Made by a program: the position numbers and the translations under genes. From a virus: a DNA stretch of 64,000 nucleotides. This document shows positions 47,267-56,609 of the stretch, in pieces. The first letter of the stretch is position 1; each line of letters begins with the position of its first letter. The notes under the pieces were generated by a model. The model was not told the DNA's origin, made no database searches, and saw only the letters and a program-made list of their open reading frames with translations. The DNA is taken from the IMG/VR virus record IMGVR_UViG_3300037845_000036, positions 33,059-97,058 of that record, one strand, 5' to 3'.

Positions 47267-49660
47267 TCAAAATGGGGATGGGTCAGGGTGCCGAACAAGT
47301 CCTAACCCGCCTCCAGGACCAATTGGCTGTTGCGCGTTCTGCTGCGCCCGTTGTTGAGATGCTTCGTGTTGATGTTGCTGCCCTTGCTTAATCAAATCCA
47401 TTTGTAAATTCGCTTGCTCACGTTCTTCTTGTGCCTTGCGATCGGCCGCTCTATCAGCCGACTCTAGCGCCGCCTCCTGCGCTCTTGCATTCTGATCGCG
47501 GGCATCTGCAGCGGCATTCGCTTGAATTTCCGCCATCTTCGCCTGATGTTCGGACGCCGCTTCTTGGGCGCGCTGCTGAATTTCCTGTGTTTTAGTAGCG
47601 GCCTGCTGTTGATTTTGTGCCGATTTAACTTGCAGCGCCGCCAGCGCCGCCATAGCGCTCGGGTCCATCTGCGGCTGTTCGGGTTGAGGCGGCAAAAAGA
47701 ATTTGTCAGGATCGGACACGCCGATCATTTCAAATATCCAGCGGTCAACCGCTTGCATATCGTATAAATCGGGGCGCATCGAAGCGATGGTCTTCACCGC
47801 CTGACATTTGATGAGGCGGATCAAATGCGATGCGGTGTTCGGGTCTGCCGCCGGCACCAATTCGAAATCGTCAAGCGCACGCAGGAATAATTCGGTTTCC
47901 CAATCAAAGGCCCGCTTTTTGTTTTTGTTCCATTTCCAGAACGCCTCGGGATTTTTCTTGTAGCGTTCCTTCAAAAGTTCGAGTTCTTCGGCCTGTGCGG
48001 CATGTAATCCAATATGAACCGCCGCCAGAACCTTTGTCGCTTGTTCGATCAGCGCCAGTGTTGTGCCCACAGGCGCATCTTGGCGCCCCTCGCCGACAGG
48101 CATCTCCGCCGTTCCCGCCACGCGATCCATGCGCTGTTCGACGTGCTGGGTAAACGCAACAAAGCCGGGGCCGACATCCTTGTACGGCAACGGTTTGATG
48201 ACTTGATCAAGCGGCAGGTTCCCTACGCCCTTGATGCCAAGACCACCGCCTGGCGGGATACGGTTCTGGTTTGTCCAGTTACGGATAATGCCTTCGTTGT
48301 AGATAAACCCAGGGAAATTCCCGAACATCCCAGCGTCAAGCGCCTCTCGCCAAGCAGCCGTCAGCGCCTTGTCGCCATTTCCCAACAAATTCAGAAGGCC
48401 CAGATCGTAAAATCCCATCGCAGGGATAAACCCGTACTTTACGAAGACTTGTCGCGCTTGATAAGTGTCGTCCTCTTCATCCCAATTCCGGCGAAGTTCC
48501 AATAATTCCCGCGCGTCCTTATCGATCGACACCTTATACGGCAGAGGGATACCAGTCGGTTCTCCCTTCCGCTTGTGTTCATACCCCCGGATGTCAAGTT
48601 CGACATAACTTTCGTAAATCGTGCGCGGCTGATCTTCCTGCCGCTGCGGTATCGGTTCCAACCCCTGTGCCGCAGCCTGCGCCTCGTCCACCGCGTTGGG
48701 CTGAAACTGCGGCTGATGCAAATCAATATCGCGGTACACACCCGCGATCTGCATCCTGCGCACCATCGCCTGCCGCATGATGAGCCGGTGCGTCACCCGC
48801 CCCGCGTCGCGGTGATCTGAAACCGCGTTGCTAACAATGATATCAGCGGCATCAACAAACCGACTGATCGGCCGCTCACGGATCGGGCAGTCATAAACCT
48901 TTTTGAACCCACACCCGCCAAACCCAACCCAGAACAGCATCCGCACTGAGTCGGGACGGTACCCACGGTCCACAACCGTCAGATTGTGGTTAAACCCACG
49001 TTCCAGCGCTTCTGCTAGTTCCTCGCGCCCCGCCTGCGCTGCCGCCACGAGATTGGGATCATCTAACGGCGGCCCGCCGTTATGCCCAACCCCCGGCTGT
49101 TCAGTAACGCCTCCCGGCTTTGTCGGGCGGTCATCCCGCACCTTGACCGGACCAGCGGGCGGATAAAGCTCAGCCGCCGCATTTGATTGAAACCGCACAA
49201 CCGCTTCCAACAACAGCGGGTGGCGGATCGTGGACATTCCCTCAAACGGACCCGTCGAATTTCCAATATCGCCAGTCGCCTTCTCCAGCAGCGTGCCGAG
49301 CATCTTTATGCCCTCGGCACGGTTCTCCAGCCACTCCTGCCGCGACTGATCGTCCGCCTCAATACCGCGCAGAACCTCTTCTACGATCCGCCCACGCTCA
49401 CCATCGTCCAGTTTCTCAGCAAGATTATCGTAAAACTTGTCTTCGCCATCATCCGCCCGCGTCGGGCGCGGGTTTAGCTGAATGACAACACCACCATCCT
49501 CGGTCGGGATCGATACCGTGCCGTCCGAATTCTGAATCGCCGCGTCGGCTGCGTCTTCAACCAACGACACCAACGAGCCGACATCATTCTCTCCCGACGC
49601 GAAAGGATCGGTGTCAGGTTCTAGTCGCTGGTTACGTGAAAAGGCCGGCAGATCGGACAT
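47267..49660 (-). CDS. Portal protein
   Basis: About 797 residues from MSDLPAFSRNQ (AAGG before the ATG; a GTG six codons earlier is possible). The body has portal features: RHPLLLEAVVRFQSNAAAEL, RMLFWVGFGGCGFKKVYDCP, GVYRDIDLHQPQF, YESYVELDIRGYEHKRKG, VEQRMDRVAGTAEMPVGEGR and APVGTTLALIEQATKV. It ends in a long Gln/Ala/Glu coiled region (about residues 670-780), the barrel/crown-like helix of P22-type portals. It forms the dodecameric gate for DNA at one capsid vertex. It follows the large terminase by one gene. Confidence 0.88.
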   Translation of the reverse strand: MSDLPAFSRNQRLEPDTDPFASGENDVGSLVSLVEDAADAAIQNSDGTVSIPTEDGGVVIQLNPRPTRADDGEDKFYDNLAEKLDDGERGRIVEEVLRGIEADDQSRQEWLENRAEGIKMLGTLLEKATGDIGNSTGPFEGMSTIRHPLLLEAVVRFQSNAAAELYPPAGPVKVRDDRPTKPGGVTEQPGVGHNGGPPLDDPNLVAAAQAGREELAEALERGFNHNLTVVDRGYRPDSVRMLFWVGFGGCGFKKVYDCPIRERPISRFVDAADIIVSNAVSDHRDAGRVTHRLIMRQAMVRRMQIAGVYRDIDLHQPQFQPNAVDEAQAAAQGLEPIPQRQEDQPRTIYESYVELDIRGYEHKRKGEPTGIPLPYKVSIDKDARELLELRRNWDEEDDTYQARQVFVKYGFIPAMGFYDLGLLNLLGNGDKALTAAWREALDAGMFGNFPGFIYNEGIIRNWTNQNRIPPGGGLGIKGVGNLPLDQVIKPLPYKDVGPGFVAFTQHVEQRMDRVAGTAEMPVGEGRQDAPVGTTLALIEQATKVLAAVHIGLHAAQAEELELLKERYKKNPEAFWKWNKNKKRAFDWETELFLRALDDFELVPAADPNTASHLIRLIKCQAVKTIASMRPDLYDMQAVDRWIFEMIGVSDPDKFFLPPQPEQPQMDPSAMAALAALQVKSAQNQQQAATKTQEIQQRAQEAASEHQAKMAEIQANAAADARDQNARAQEAALESADRAADRKAQEEREQANLQMDLIKQGQQHQHEASQQRAQQNAQQPIGPGGGLGLVRHPDPSPF

Positions 49661-49679
49661 CGGTGTGCCTTGCCGCACA

Positions 49680-50230: not shown

Positions 50231-53119
50231 TTATAGGTCGTAGGGCAACGCGCGAGCACGTTGCGTCGGCCACGTCATCGACTGCTCTTCGCCCTTGTCC
50301 CAAGCTTCGCGGCGCTCGAAGATGCCGATATCGCTTAGATGTTTGAGAGCACCACTACAAGCGTCCATGGTGTCGTCATGTCTTCCTCTAGGAAATAAGC
50401 AAATTTCCTCAATCAATGGTTCGCACCAGACGGGTCTCGTTCCATCTTCATACATCGGAATATAGAGTTGGTGTGACGAAAATATCCACTGTACTGCATG
50501 AGCGCGCGCCCATTTGTCCCCACGTGCGGCCTTTAACTCTGTTGCCCATGTCTGATCAGAAAAAAGCCGTCGTAATTCTTGTTCTAAACCGTGCCCTTGG
50601 CCCTGAGTCTCAATCCCAAGATATTCGACTTTATAGCGTCGGCAGGTGTCATTAACCCATTCCACCAATCCCCAGTTGGCTTGCCGCTGTTCTCGATATC
50701 GCGGCGAACGCCATTCCTCTGCCGTCACACCAGAAGGCAATTCATCGGGCGGTCCATGTAACTCTAGCCGCTTGGTCCATCCATAAAGCAACAACACCTT
50801 TGGAAACCCGTAGTCATCAGCCTCTCGAATATATGTACCGTCCCCATTAGGGACGATGCGCCCCTTGCCCTCCGCCCTGAACACACCAAACACCAACATC
50901 GCGCTTCGATCATTCTGCTGTCTCTCGGTAAACGCCGTGTCCACCCATGCCACGACATATTCCAACGCAGGATACTGTATCCGGCCGTTTCGGATCATGT
51001 CTTGCGGAAACGTTCCATCAGGCAATAATGGAGGCCACGGTTCCAACCACTCTGCCTTAATAATTCCGCCGCCTTTTGGTATAGGAAGCTGTTGTAACTG
51101 ACCTGCTACACTGTATTCCGTAAGACGATCGCCATCAAGAGCACGTAATCCTTGCTCTATTTGCTTGAGAGCACTATCGGTCCACACTGCTGGCCAAAGT
51201 AATTCTCCACGCTCTGTTCTTGGGTCTCCTTGGCATGCTCGATCAGGATCAAATCTGGCCGGGTACATCAAGTGTACAGTGTCTTCTGGCCAGTTTTTTA
51301 GTGCCCAATCTGTTGCATCAAGAGTGTGTAATCTTTGCATGATCAATATTCGTGCAGACGTGCGCGGATCTGTAATACGAGTTGTCAAATCACTCATACC
51401 ACGAATTGAAGCATTGCGCTCCATTTCACTATCCGCACCTCTGCGAGTTTGGGGATCGTCGCAGATTATTAAATTTCCGCCACGGCCCAACAGGCCGCCT
51501 TCGATTGAACTTGACATGCGCTCACCACCAGCAGTATTGCCGAAGTTGGCTCTGCTCTGCTGATCCGGCAGTATTTTTACTTGTTTACCCCAATGTTTTT
51601 GATACCATTCCCCCATAACCAGTCGTCGCATCTTAACGGCAAGTTCCTCTGAAAGAATAGAACCGTATGACACAGACAAAATCTTCACATGAGGGCCAGA
51701 AAGAGGCCCCCATTTCGCTTCTGGCTGTATCCATAGCCATGCTGGGAAGATAATATTGACCAAATTGCTGTTATGAACAGCCAAATCATTAACCGTAAAA
51801 CTCTCGTCTTCTTTAACGGTCAGGCATCTACATTCCGCCTTGCCTGCGCCAACGATGCTAAGAACGGGATCAGGATGAAGGACAGTGTGGAAACTCCGAG
51901 GCGTTGCTGCCTCTATCGCTCTTTTTTTCCTTTCGCAAAGACCTGGCAAAAATTTGAATTTGCTAACATTCGTTTCATCAGTGGCCCCCACATCAAATGA
52001 TGTGTATAACCCTCCCGGCTGTCGCTTGCTTTCAAGTTTTGCCACACGGCGACGAATACGAGTATTGATCCCTATTCGTAGACACAAATGTTGAATATCC
52101 CTAGCCAAACCTTCTGATACAGTAGTCATTTTCGCTTCGTGGCTTAGTCGTGTATCATTTCTATGCTTTACTGCAAAATATCCGTCACAACTGGCATACG
52201 CCCCAACAAAATTTGATATAATCGTATTGTTCGCCCGCAACACAGCGGCGGGAACTCGTTTGGTATAACTGTCAGAACCACGCAAGCCATGGCCCCCTAG
52301 AAATTCCTGCAGACGCCCACTTCGGTTAGAATGGACTCCTATCGCCGTACAGGTACCCACCCGTGTCCGTCGTTTAGTCTCAAATCCTAGCGCGTGTGCG
52401 CATCGTTCAAAATCATCCAGGATTTCTTCTTCATTCCCCGTAAACGAAATTCCTGTGTATTTAACAGAACCATCACCGATCAAATATCCCAAAAAACGCG
52501 CTTCTTCCGTTGACATGCTTGGGGACACAACTTCGCTCCCCGTCGCATCTCCGCCCACCGCTGCCAAAATATCTGTCGTCTTTAATTCCCCGGCGGCTAC
52601 CCAACCACGCGTGGTTAAAAACGGATGATCTGGCGCCACCTTTGCTCGGCGTCCCTGAAATGTTTCTACCGCTATGACATCCAACAATCCCTGTTCATGA
52701 ACCGCCGTGACAGGTCTATATTGTCCCCTATGCGTCAGTACACGATCACCAACTTTAATGTCTCCCAATCTTATTGGTCCAATGTCCGTCAATACCATTT
52801 CATCTATACTGACCGGCTTTGTGTGCCTCGGAGGTATGTTGATAATGAGATTTCTTATCTTTCCCGTTCTTATTTGCCGTAATTTCTTGGCGATTTCTAT
52901 ATGATGCCAATTAATTTCTAATGTCTGCGTCTCACCAATTTCCTTCCACGCATGGCGCATGAACTCAATCAGCGACCGCTCGCAATTCTCCTTTTCCTGC
53001 TTGTTCGCCCTCATCTCCAGCAGGATCGCAAGCTCGATCTGCTCTTCCTTGGTGAGCGGCTTTAGCTTTTTCCGATCGACGTTGGGGTTTGGTCGGAGAA
53101 TTAATTGACCGCCGGGCAT
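50231..53119 (-). CDS. terL: Large terminase subunit with intein
   Basis: A 962-residue precursor (ATG at 53119; a TTG two codons earlier is possible). Without the intein the packaging ATPase/nuclease is about 613 residues. Walker A is split: PPRHTK ends at residue 101 and the chain resumes with SNLVNIIFPAWLW at 451, giving PPRHTKS after splicing. Walker B is GNLIICDDP. The nuclease part has VAWVDTAF, YLGIETQGQGHG and LFPRGRHDDTMDA, the three acidic positions of the RNase-H-like fold. It pumps DNA into the prohead and cuts concatemers. A small stem (GAGCCG/CGGCTC, 53131-53145) lies just before the start. Confidence 0.95.
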   Translation of the reverse strand: MPGGQLILRPNPNVDRKKLKPLTKEEQIELAILLEMRANKQEKENCERSLIEFMRHAWKEIGETQTLEINWHHIEIAKKLRQIRTGKIRNLIINIPPRHTKPVSIDEMVLTDIGPIRLGDIKVGDRVLTHRGQYRPVTAVHEQGLLDVIAVETFQGRRAKVAPDHPFLTTRGWVAAGELKTTDILAAVGGDATGSEVVSPSMSTEEARFLGYLIGDGSVKYTGISFTGNEEEILDDFERCAHALGFETKRRTRVGTCTAIGVHSNRSGRLQEFLGGHGLRGSDSYTKRVPAAVLRANNTIISNFVGAYASCDGYFAVKHRNDTRLSHEAKMTTVSEGLARDIQHLCLRIGINTRIRRRVAKLESKRQPGGLYTSFDVGATDETNVSKFKFLPGLCERKKRAIEAATPRSFHTVLHPDPVLSIVGAGKAECRCLTVKEDESFTVNDLAVHNSNLVNIIFPAWLWIQPEAKWGPLSGPHVKILSVSYGSILSEELAVKMRRLVMGEWYQKHWGKQVKILPDQQSRANFGNTAGGERMSSSIEGGLLGRGGNLIICDDPQTRRGADSEMERNASIRGMSDLTTRITDPRTSARILIMQRLHTLDATDWALKNWPEDTVHLMYPARFDPDRACQGDPRTERGELLWPAVWTDSALKQIEQGLRALDGDRLTEYSVAGQLQQLPIPKGGGIIKAEWLEPWPPLLPDGTFPQDMIRNGRIQYPALEYVVAWVDTAFTERQQNDRSAMLVFGVFRAEGKGRIVPNGDGTYIREADDYGFPKVLLLYGWTKRLELHGPPDELPSGVTAEEWRSPRYREQRQANWGLVEWVNDTCRRYKVEYLGIETQGQGHGLEQELRRLFSDQTWATELKAARGDKWARAHAVQWIFSSHQLYIPMYEDGTRPVWCEPLIEEICLFPRGRHDDTMDACSGALKHLSDIGIFERREAWDKGEEQSMTWPTQRARALPYDL
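51770..52816 (-). mobile_element. Intein with LAGLIDADG endonuclease in terL Walker A
   Basis: A 349-residue intein between Lys101 and Ser451 of the precursor. The N-terminal splicing block starts with Pro (PVSIDEMVLTDIGPIRLGD). Block B is AKVAPDHPFLTTRGW, with His but Ala at the usual Thr place. The end is CRCLTVKEDESFTVNDLAVHN followed by Ser. A Cys replaces the usual Asp of block F, and the last Asn plus penultimate His are intact. The nuclease insert has FLGYLIGDGS and FVGAYASCDGYF, the two acidic helices of a LAGLIDADG enzyme. Pro first and block-F Cys recall class 3 inteins, but the Trp and Thr of that class's WCT set are Phe and Val. Confidence 0.92.
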
Positions 53120-53125
53120 GGGCAA

Positions 53126-55315: not shown

Positions 55316-55562
55316 CACGTGTGTCTGCCGCAGCGTCGCTTGCGATCTCGCCGTTGTGCGCCGCGACATCGGACACTGCCCACTCGGACCATTCACCGTC
55401 ATCCTCGACGCGCTCGCTTAGCAGATAGGTTTCAAAGGCACCAGCCATAGCAACGGCGGCATCAGCGGTAGCTGTATGACAGAAACGGCAAGCCTGCTCC
55501 AAGCAAAACCTGCGCAATTGCACTAACTCGCCATCGCTAAACGCTATCGTCAGCTTCGGCAT
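55305..55562 (-). CDS. Small protein, unknown (85 aa)
   Basis: Taken from MPKLTIAFSDGELVQLRRF; an extension to 55604 runs further into terS. It has helices with ALALQ-like character, ACRFCHTATADAAVAMAG (two Cys), and an acidic end. It overlaps the end of the small terminase by 26 bases. Function unknown. Confidence 0.5.
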   Translation of the reverse strand: MPKLTIAFSDGELVQLRRFCLEQACRFCHTATADAAVAMAGAFETYLLSERVEDDGEWSEWAVSDVAAHNGEIASDAAADTRDAA

Positions 55563-56115
55563 TACCCGACTCCTCATCCTCGAAATCTTGTGCGTCATGG
55601 TCAATTACAATGCCAGCGCGTTCGGCCAGCGTCCAGATATGATCCTCGCGTTGATCATCAGCCATTTGCCCAAGGCGATGTTCAACCGAACCAGTGTGTT
55701 CAACCTCGCGACGATCTGACCATTCAAACCTACGGCGGTTCTTCAGCCAGATAAACGCGGCCGCTGTGTCGGGCGGATAGTGCTCGACATAAGGCGCATA
55801 GATCGGCGCTTCGGCTCCCTGCGGCATAAGTATCTTGACCGCGTCGTGCGAGTAACCCTTAGCTCGCTCATAAAGACTACGCACTATTTGCGCATCAGCT
55901 ATTTCGCCCCCGCTTTTTACGGATTGCCCAAATTCAGGATGTAGCTTGCAATATGTTGCGAAGCGTCTTGGCGATACACCAAGTTTAGCTGCCATTTGTT
56001 GTTGGTTAAGGCCGAGGAGCGCCAGGTTCTTTACCTGTTCAACCATTTCAGGTCTGTAATTAGTTGGTCTCCCAACTTTGCGACTTGGCTTTTGTTGGCG
56101 CTGTGTTTGGGGCAT
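55537..56115 (-). CDS. terS: Small terminase subunit
   Basis: From MPQTQRQQKPSRKVGRPTNY the protein has 192 residues. It has the well-known small-terminase HTH: NYRPEMVEQVKNLALLGLNQ, QQMAAKLGVSPRRFATYCK, HPEF, then ADAQIVRSLYERAKGYSHDA, APYVEHYPPDTAAAFIWLKN and RRRFEWSDR. The oligomer recognises the packaging site and loads the large subunit. Longer starts (to 56244) would run through the promoter region facing the plus-strand genes and are disfavoured. No Shine-Dalgarno site is visible; see the leaderless note. Confidence 0.85.
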   Translation of the reverse strand: MPQTQRQQKPSRKVGRPTNYRPEMVEQVKNLALLGLNQQQMAAKLGVSPRRFATYCKLHPEFGQSVKSGGEIADAQIVRSLYERAKGYSHDAVKILMPQGAEAPIYAPYVEHYPPDTAAAFIWLKNRRRFEWSDRREVEHTGSVEHRLGQMADDQREDHIWTLAERAGIVIDHDAQDFEDEESGNAEADDSV

Positions 56116-56122
56116 GAGGGCG

Positions 56123-56151
56123 CATATAACGCGGATTTGCGAGGATTGCAA
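56123..56151 (-). promoter_or_regulatory. Candidate late promoter before terS
   Basis: On the minus strand TTGCAA (56146-56151), 17 bases, then TATATG (56123-56128). A start about seven bases on would fall at the terS ATG, giving a leaderless or nearly leaderless message. This is the only non-coding gap at the head of the long late gene run. Confidence 0.45.
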
Positions 56152-56162
56152 GCGGGGCTGTT

Positions 56163-56202
56163 GTGCGATTTGTGTTGACATGGCGATAGCGCGGCGTATG
56201 AT
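56163..56202 (+). promoter_or_regulatory. Early promoter 1 with GTGCGATTT box
   Basis: TTGACA (56175-56180), 16 bases, TATGAT (56197-56202): nearly perfect sigma-70 elements. GTGCGATTT (56163-56171) stands three bases before the -35. The same box and spacing occur at the promoters at 62197 and 62482, so it is probably a binding site for a shared regulator. It drives the cassette 56229-57197. Confidence 0.75.
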
Positions 56203-56228
56203 GGGATTGTCAGAACGGGAGAACGGAA

Positions 56229-56609
56229 ATGACATATCAGCCACCGATTACAGTACGCAAAGCCGAAGTAGCGCCGATCGTCGCGGCCACGTTCCCAGAA
56301 TATCGCGGTAAGAAATTCCGCGTAGAGTTCCGCGAACAAGTCTGTCTGTTGGATCTGAATTGGTCCGGCGGGTCACGGAGTCAGTACCGCGCTTGCACGT
56401 TAAGCGGCGAAGCACTTGGTTCATCGGCGAAGTACAACGCAATGGCGCCATGGGACTCGCGGCAAGTCGAAGGACAGAGCGTAGCGGTTCCGCAAGGCGC
56501 TTGCATGGTTCGCCATAGCCATTTCTGCGGGAAGGACACGGGAATCACGATCACAATAAACCCGGCAGATGCGCCGAAATGGATCGAACATCAGAACAGC
56601 GCGGCATAG
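56229..56609 (+). CDS. Conserved early phage protein (126 aa)
   Basis: First gene of the plus cassette, with GGGAGAACGG before the ATG. The sequence runs VAATFPEYRGKKFRVEFREQ, VCLLDLNWSGGSRSQYRACT and VPQGACMVRHSHFCGKDTGI; the last part (HxxFxGKDxGI) is conserved in similar phage and prophage proteins as I recall. No catalytic motif is known. It likely acts early in infection. Confidence 0.7.
   Translation: MTYQPPITVRKAEVAPIVAATFPEYRGKKFRVEFREQVCLLDLNWSGGSRSQYRACTLSGEALGSSAKYNAMAPWDSRQVEGQSVAVPQGACMVRHSHFCGKDTGITITINPADAPKWIEHQNSAA

Follow-up and report, generated by a model that had tools for sequence, protein, structure and literature searches.

The large terminase subunit gene (terL) of an uncultured virus carries an in-frame intein in the stretch of DNA analyzed here, a 64,000-nucleotide piece (G000:C1:33059-97058, hereafter the window) of the 97,058-base record IMGVR_UViG_3300037845_000036. 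The features of the locus, in window coordinates, are as follows.

50231 to 53125, minus strand: terL open reading frame (ORF), a precursor of 964 amino acids (aa); listed with a TTG start, though translation may begin elsewhere; Terminase_6C, E-value 5.6e-13
52817 to 53125, minus strand: N-extein, 103 aa, with the C-terminal end PPRHTK (Walker A through its Lys)
51770 to 52816, minus strand: intein, 349 aa, precursor residues 104-452
52814 to 52816, minus strand: Pro1, which is no nucleophile
52613 to 52654, minus strand: block B, GRRAKVAPDHPFLT, reading APDHPF, with Ala61 (position B:7), His64 (B:10) and Phe66 (B:12)
51887 to 52528, minus strand: homing endonuclease domain, two LAGLIDADG_3 stretches, limits approximate
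about 52510 to 52472 and about 52228 to 52184, minus strand: two LAGLIDADG helices, helical in the AlphaFold2 model
51830 to 51832, minus strand: Cys329 (F:2), first Cys of a C-x-C motif
51824 to 51826, minus strand: Cys331 (F:4), second Cys of CRCLTV, putative first nucleophile
51770 to 51778, minus strand: Val347 (G:5), His348 (G:6) and Asn349 (G:7) of block G, AVHN
50231 to 51769, minus strand: C-extein, 512 aa, first residue Ser+1 (the Walker A Ser)
47267 to 49678, minus strand: portal protein gene, as context; phrog_1216, E-value 5.1e-15
55537 to 56244, minus strand: terminase small subunit gene (terS), as context; phrog_309, E-value 4.8e-44

The terL frame is uninterrupted over all 964 aa, and the intein is inserted between the Lys and the Ser of Walker A, with the junctions PPRHTK/PVSIDEM and DLAVHN/SNLVN. 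An earlier inspection of the letters (the original prediction) had given these coordinates, the 349-residue length and the split of the P-loop, and all were exact on re-reading. The same holds for the residues named at three positions: Phe (B:12, within H-P-F), Cys (F:4) and Val (G:5, within A-V-H-N). A Pfam search with the intein alone returned two LAGLIDADG_3 stretches (E-value 3.8e-17), Terminase_6C falls in the C-extein, and the match to Intein_splicing is below its curated cut-off. The two LAGLIDADG motifs lie between blocks B and F, as in LAGLIDADG homing endonuclease inteins. Together with the helices in the AlphaFold2 model, the two stretches bear out the claim that both LAGLIDADG helices are kept. 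A 100% identical sequence is present in a second contig, IMGVR_UViG_3300037491_000011, which may be the same virus.

The intein belongs to a larger family. A tblastn search of 50,697 phage records gave 122 matching records, the best matches being to terminases from jumbo phages of Caulobacter and Brevundimonas; those read have the same Walker A bond, Pro1, H-P-F, H-S-F or H-A-F, CLTV and V-H/K-N. We coined the name FCV for inteins with Phe B:12, Cys F:4 and Val G:5. Viral contigs were scanned twice, by block F (49 loci) and with a query limited to the first 95 residues (55 loci), and a third scan, of bacterial and archaeal genomes, kept 80 of 93 loci, 5 of them FCV. The block F scan and its reading required the block F Cys, and 4 of its 49 loci, not read to both ends, were excluded. 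The N-terminal scan did not require this Cys; its patterns required AxDHPFLT-like or EQGxL-like stretches, and two misanchored loci (L120 and L123) were kept out of the panel. After copies of at least 85% identity were collapsed, 101 FCV sequences gave 59 clusters and 83 class 1 rows gave 72, and the 14 rows of canonical class 3 inteins, which carry Trp B:12, Cys F:4 and Thr G:5 (WCT), stayed at 14. The FCV relatives are mostly found in terminases of uncultured phages and of the Caulobacter and Brevundimonas jumbo phages.

Position 1 never holds Cys, Ser or Thr in the 59 FCV clusters (Pro 56, Asp 2, Glu 1), which separates them from class 1. His B:10, Asn G:7, the class 3 Cys at F:4 (C2:4) and Val at G:5, where WCT inteins have Thr, are invariant (59/59 each). 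B:12 is Phe in 52, Tyr in 4 and Leu, Ile or His in one each, never the Trp of WCT inteins; B:7 is Ala in 54, His in 3 and Glu in 2; and the +1 residue is Ser in 48, Thr in 10 and Cys in one. Among 54 loci newly read from the N-terminal scan, with a C-terminal model built mostly from FCV rows, Cys F:4 and Val G:5 were present in all 54. The observed residue combination is far beyond chance, on the basis of 59 diverged clusters and a structure model with a pLDDT of 93.5. The original prediction presented the intein as a single variant class 3 oddity; a variant it is, but it has relatives across a broad phage family and is not isolated. Lys, Ser or Arg occupies G:6 in the L013-L019 group, L029, L037 and L046.

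Most FCV inteins (53/59 clusters) are inserted between the Lys and the Ser or Thr of Walker A. Five clusters (L013, L015, L016, L017 and L019) occupy a second P-loop site three residues upstream, PPG/[TSC](M/T)KS, and one sits at an SGG motif in a protein resembling PAPS reductase, named by motif reading alone. L123 and L128 are FCV mini-inteins at an SGGKES/SGGIES site, apparently in such a protein rather than in a terminase. In 5 of the 59 clusters the FCV intein is a mini-intein of 134-157 aa without the endonuclease domain, and the residue pattern is kept. The ratio of nonsynonymous to synonymous substitution rates (dN/dS) in the splicing domain was 0.03-0.25 in four distinct FCV pairs, indicating purifying selection. 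A search of cellular genomes with the profile of the FCV N-terminal part (threshold E ≤ 1e-5) matched 5 of 398 genomes of one phylum (that of G005) and 88 of 296 of another (that of G001). Very strong matches (8.5e-29 and 5.2e-40) were confined to the two centre genomes, which had been selected for holding an FCV intein, and the next best match in the G001 set was 7.1e-14. The weaker matches in cellular genomes that were readable at both ends are Cys1 inteins (7 loci were not extracted). Different intein kinds also occur together. One terminase ORF of the bacterial contig CAIQQO010000477.1 (L131) has its Walker A split by an FCV intein and holds, further downstream, a class 1 intein with Cys1 and Asp F:4. 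Mesorhizobium phage Cp1R7A-A1 carries an FCV-type Asp1 intein in TerL (L007) and also has a helicase with a WCT intein (L074).

We compared the FCV clusters with class 1 and WCT panels. The class 1 panel was drawn partly by the pattern HPFLTxxGW and partly from Pfam PF14890 matches in the genomes of one phylum, omitting Hint-like rows without Ser, Thr or Cys at +1 and rows with weak ends. All 72 of its clusters have Cys1, and F:4 is Asp in 65 and Asn in 7, which agrees with the earlier statement that the block F Cys stands where Asp is usual. The window intein has AxxH in block B and Cys at F:4, in place of the TxxH or SxxH and Asp or Asn of class 1. Loss of the position 1 nucleophile and Cys at F:4 are always paired, because all 59 FCV clusters have both and all 72 class 1 clusters have neither. 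All 14 WCT references carry Cys at F:4 and Thr at G:5, and 12 of them carry Trp. In a scan of viral contigs that used block A and a stretch from the middle (453 loci found, 80 kept), whose reading required Cys F:4, W, C and T were kept in 80/80. The FCV and WCT combinations are discrete, with no intermediate among the sequences read. The distance from residue 1 to the B:10 His is 64-65 in FCV (76 in one), 63-65 in WCT and 63-89 in class 1 inteins. One further locus, L255, has a Cys1 intein immediately before SGKT with block G TVTHN, and its block F (YFGFEV) has neither Asp nor Cys at the usual position.

The same bond is used by both intein kinds. Among terminases of viral contigs, the one nearest to that of the window is L288 (IMGVR_UViG_3300014501_000036), with 45% identity in the N-extein (over 88 aa) and 47% in the C-extein. 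Its 345-residue intein sits at the identical PPRHTK bond with Ala1, DHLW, NCIKV and CTHN; its closest relatives are the WCT references, and it is 25% identical to the window intein. Because a canonical WCT intein occupies the identical bond of L288, both kinds serve one junction, and working terminases would require both to leave it identical. Walker A is intact in three intein-free relatives (PPGTMKS, PPRHMKS and PPGTMKS).

The AlphaFold2 model of the intein with six flanking residues on each side, built from 51 aligned relatives, had a mean predicted local distance difference test score (pLDDT) of 93.5 and a predicted template modelling score (pTM) of 0.92. Over the whole length it matched the archaeal TliVMA intein 7qsu (Z 32.4, 316 residues aligned, root-mean-square deviation (rmsd) 3.2). 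Among splicing-domain structures, class 1 DnaB inteins ranked first, led by 6fre (Z 22.9, rmsd 1.9, 142 aligned, 25% identity), with 1mi8 at Z 22.2 (rmsd 1.2, 132 aligned) and RecA 5i0a at Z 21.1, whereas the class 3 Msm and Mch DnaB1 inteins reached Z 18.9 (rmsd 1.4-1.7, 121-125 aligned, 20-21% identity). As a control, the model of the L288 WCT intein (pLDDT 90.9) matched class 3 6bs8 first (Z 19.0, rmsd 1.4, 122 aligned, 36% identity) and Ssp DnaB 6fre with Z 16.4 and 14% identity. Profiles gave a similar picture: the PDB profile search returned class 1 PI-MtuI at 6e-13 versus class 3 Msm DnaB1 6bs8 at 0.012, and hhalign scores between splicing domains were 243.7 for FCV-class 1, 133.0 for FCV-WCT and 112.3 for WCT-class 1. 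By these models and profiles, the predicted splicing domain of the window intein is nearest to class 1 and that of the L288 allele nearest to class 3, which is a statement of likeness and not of descent.

Trees were built from splicing domains with the signature columns removed (about 140 columns), on random panel samples of 29, 24 and 22 FCV, 34, 38 and 35 class 1, and 14, 14 and 17 WCT rows; the third sample was prepared after removal of six long rows of class 1 and of the WCT rows L071 and L073. The first tree recovered FCV (support 98/91) and WCT (100/99), and a branch with support 91/74 set class 1 apart from these two. The second recovered FCV (88/78) and WCT (85/83) and split class 1 in two, and the third recovered WCT (100/100) but not FCV as one clade. 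In approximately unbiased (AU) tests, a clade of the window intein with WCT was rejected (p 0.031, in the one panel of the first tree). A joint FCV and WCT clade was not rejected in the second (p 0.31) or third panel (p 0.47), and neither was FCV as one clade in the third (p 0.30). A separate FCV origin from class 1, first suggested by the profile and hhalign scores, is not established by these trees, since about 140 columns are too few.

We propose, with a probability of about 0.75, that the window element is a functional homing endonuclease intein of a distinct FCV phage lineage, with a block F Cys as in class 3 on a class-1-like scaffold. Class 3 is operationally defined by the lack of Cys1 and a Cys at C2:4 (PMC7891396), and the block F cysteine makes the attack that opens class 3 splicing (PMC7891396; PMC5222942). 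In the proposed route, Cys331, activated near block B His64, would attack the Lys(-1)-Pro1 bond, and the N-extein would be transferred to Ser+1. Asn349 would then cyclize and the extein ends would join, restoring Walker A (PPRHTKS). The order of steps would be that of class 3 minus the Trp and Thr of the canonical inteins. The endonuclease would presumably have as its target the conserved codons for Walker A in terL genes that lack the intein. We infer all chemical steps and the homing from the sequence, its conservation, the allele at the same site and the fold prediction. Cys331 as first nucleophile is the simplest account because FCV inteins lack Cys1 as well as the Thr B:7 and Asp F:4 of class 1, and Cys F:4 is invariant; Ser or Thr at +1 in 58/59 FCV clusters also counts for the block F route. 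Purifying selection and the FCV members free of the endonuclease support function. Trp and Thr do not appear indispensable in every scaffold, because the AceL NrdHF intein splices with Met at B:12, and a Thr to Ala change at its G:5 made splicing about tenfold slower without abolishing it (PMC7891396).

Several points weigh against this proposal. Three classical class 3 inteins no longer splice once Trp B:12 is mutated (PMC5222942), and the Cys-His-Thr triad put forward for MchDnaB1 (PMC7664689) relies on a Thr hydroxyl whose role Val is unable to take over. The penultimate His (G:6) is replaced in 9 of 59 FCV clusters (His 50, Lys 7, Ser 1, Arg 1). The selection of part of the class 1 panel by HPFLTxxGW inflates its likeness to FCV, and no splicing or mutagenesis data were seen for any FCV intein.

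The most serious competitor is the reading that drift at B:12 and G:5 has altered an otherwise ordinary class 3 intein of the WCT kind. The nucleophile position and the insertion bond match the WCT allele of L288, the spacing from residue 1 to the B:10 His resembles that of WCT, FCV and WCT share one side of the 91/74 branch in the first tree, and their joint clade was unrejected in the two other panels. However, WCT forms its own clade in all three trees, the triplet is present in all 80 WCT loci kept from the scan of viral contigs, and the profile and structure likeness lies on the class 1 side. Since placement inside the WCT clade was rejected in the one panel, the window intein is not simply class 3 with two substitutions, and from the sequences compared it is probably not a drifted WCT intein; we regard that history as unlikely. 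As for the chemistry, the original idea that the intein follows a class 3 route with an altered WCT set remains the mechanism with the most support. A class 2-like route, with direct attack of Ser+1 on the N-terminal bond and a structural Cys331, would fit the lack of a nucleophile at position 1. It is improbable, because Cys F:4 is invariant where class 1 has Asp or Asn, and known class 2 inteins attack directly with Cys+1 (PMC7891396), where the window has Ser and nearly all FCV clusters Ser or Thr.

An inactive intein within a decayed terL agrees with the fact that no experiment has shown activity. The open 964-aa frame, portal and terS genes beside terL, relatives with retained catalytic residues and low dN/dS, and the identical copy in the second, possibly same, virus make this slightly less probable still. 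Least credible is a class 1 intein with a shifted boundary whose true first residue is a nearby Ser or Cys. The window does have Ser at position 3, but this position is Ser in 11, Cys in 5, and Cys, Ser or Thr in 17 of 59 clusters against Pro1 in 56, and a later start would leave surplus residues in Walker A that are absent from the intein-free relatives. The claim of a non-canonical intein thus withstood this alternative, which the original prediction had itself named as its refutation, in the alignment of position 1 (0/59 nucleophiles).

The C-x-C motif adds a further feature to the FCV lineage. Cys at F:2 occurs in 56 of 59 FCV clusters, in 0/14 WCT and in 0/72 class 1 clusters of the panel. 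It is not essential, because the Asp1 FCV members lack it. The side chains of F:2 and F:4, two residues apart on a strand, could point the same way. A disulfide of the catalytic cysteine turns off splicing of Msm DnaBi1 (PMC6195587), and from this we guess at a redox role for C-x-C. A more far-reaching scenario, which we put forward tentatively and at somewhat less than even odds, is that a class-1-like FCV intein shifted its nucleophile to block F and never had Trp B:12 or Thr G:5, being either a separate origin of class 3 or a living intermediate toward WCT, with C-x-C as a redox switch. From grafting onto a class 1 intein, the authors of PMC7664689 argue against any evolution of class 3 out of class 1, and a protease origin is proposed for class 3 in the same paper; a separate origin or a WCT intermediate, if true, would both contradict this proposal. 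With a block F Cys and class 1 residues elsewhere, the FCV lineage allows a direct test of the class 1 to class 3 question, and the window and L288 provide a ready comparison of two intein kinds at one bond of related terminases. If the mini-inteins splice, they would be new ligation tools without a cysteine requirement at the N-terminal junction.

The Pro at the intein start, emphasized in the original prediction, is present, and class 3 inteins usually have Ala there, but it is not the unusual part. Pro1 at the Lys/Ser bond of TerL was already known, because it was published in 2012 for phage phiCbK with the boundaries K130, P131 and S472; the missing Ser or Cys was remarked on, and the class 3 paper was referred to for Pro1 (PMC3556154). 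The missing Trp and Thr go unmentioned in the part of that paper examined. The unusual part is the absence of both Trp and Thr. Our literature search, with subscription papers mostly outside its scope, gave no report of F-C-V inteins or of a fourth class. Deviations from WCT of 4.6% (Thr) and 6.1% (Trp) are given in PMC7891396, and FCV members may be counted among them. The FCV lineage itself suggests that class calling by WCT alone would overlook such inteins. The point of interest is the FCV family, with its proposed mechanism, rather than the single window intein.

Among known systems, the closest are the TerL inteins of phiCbK-like Caulobacter phages (Dolichocephalovirinae), which share with the window the protein, the Lys/Ser bond, Pro1, Phe B:12, Cys F:4 and Val G:5. 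They are 27-30% identical to the window intein, and their first LAGLIDADG motif is degenerate. Canonical class 3 inteins (MP-Be DnaB, Msm and Mch DnaB1, phage TerL and DnaB WCT inteins) likewise have no position 1 nucleophile and have Cys F:4, His B:10, Asn G:7 and often the Walker A site of TerL, but the window intein differs from them by having Phe instead of Trp at B:12, Val instead of Thr at G:5, the C-x-C of block F and a class-1-like core. The split AceL NrdHF intein, for which its authors showed class 3 chemistry, has the changed triplet M-C-T; unlike the window intein it keeps the Thr, is split and has no in-frame LAGLIDADG domain (PMC7891396). Class 1 inteins (DnaB, RecA and archaeal VMA) give the best profile and fold matches and have Phe B:12 and Val G:5 in common with the window intein, which departs from them in the lack of Cys1, Ala for Thr at B:7 and Cys for Asp at F:4.

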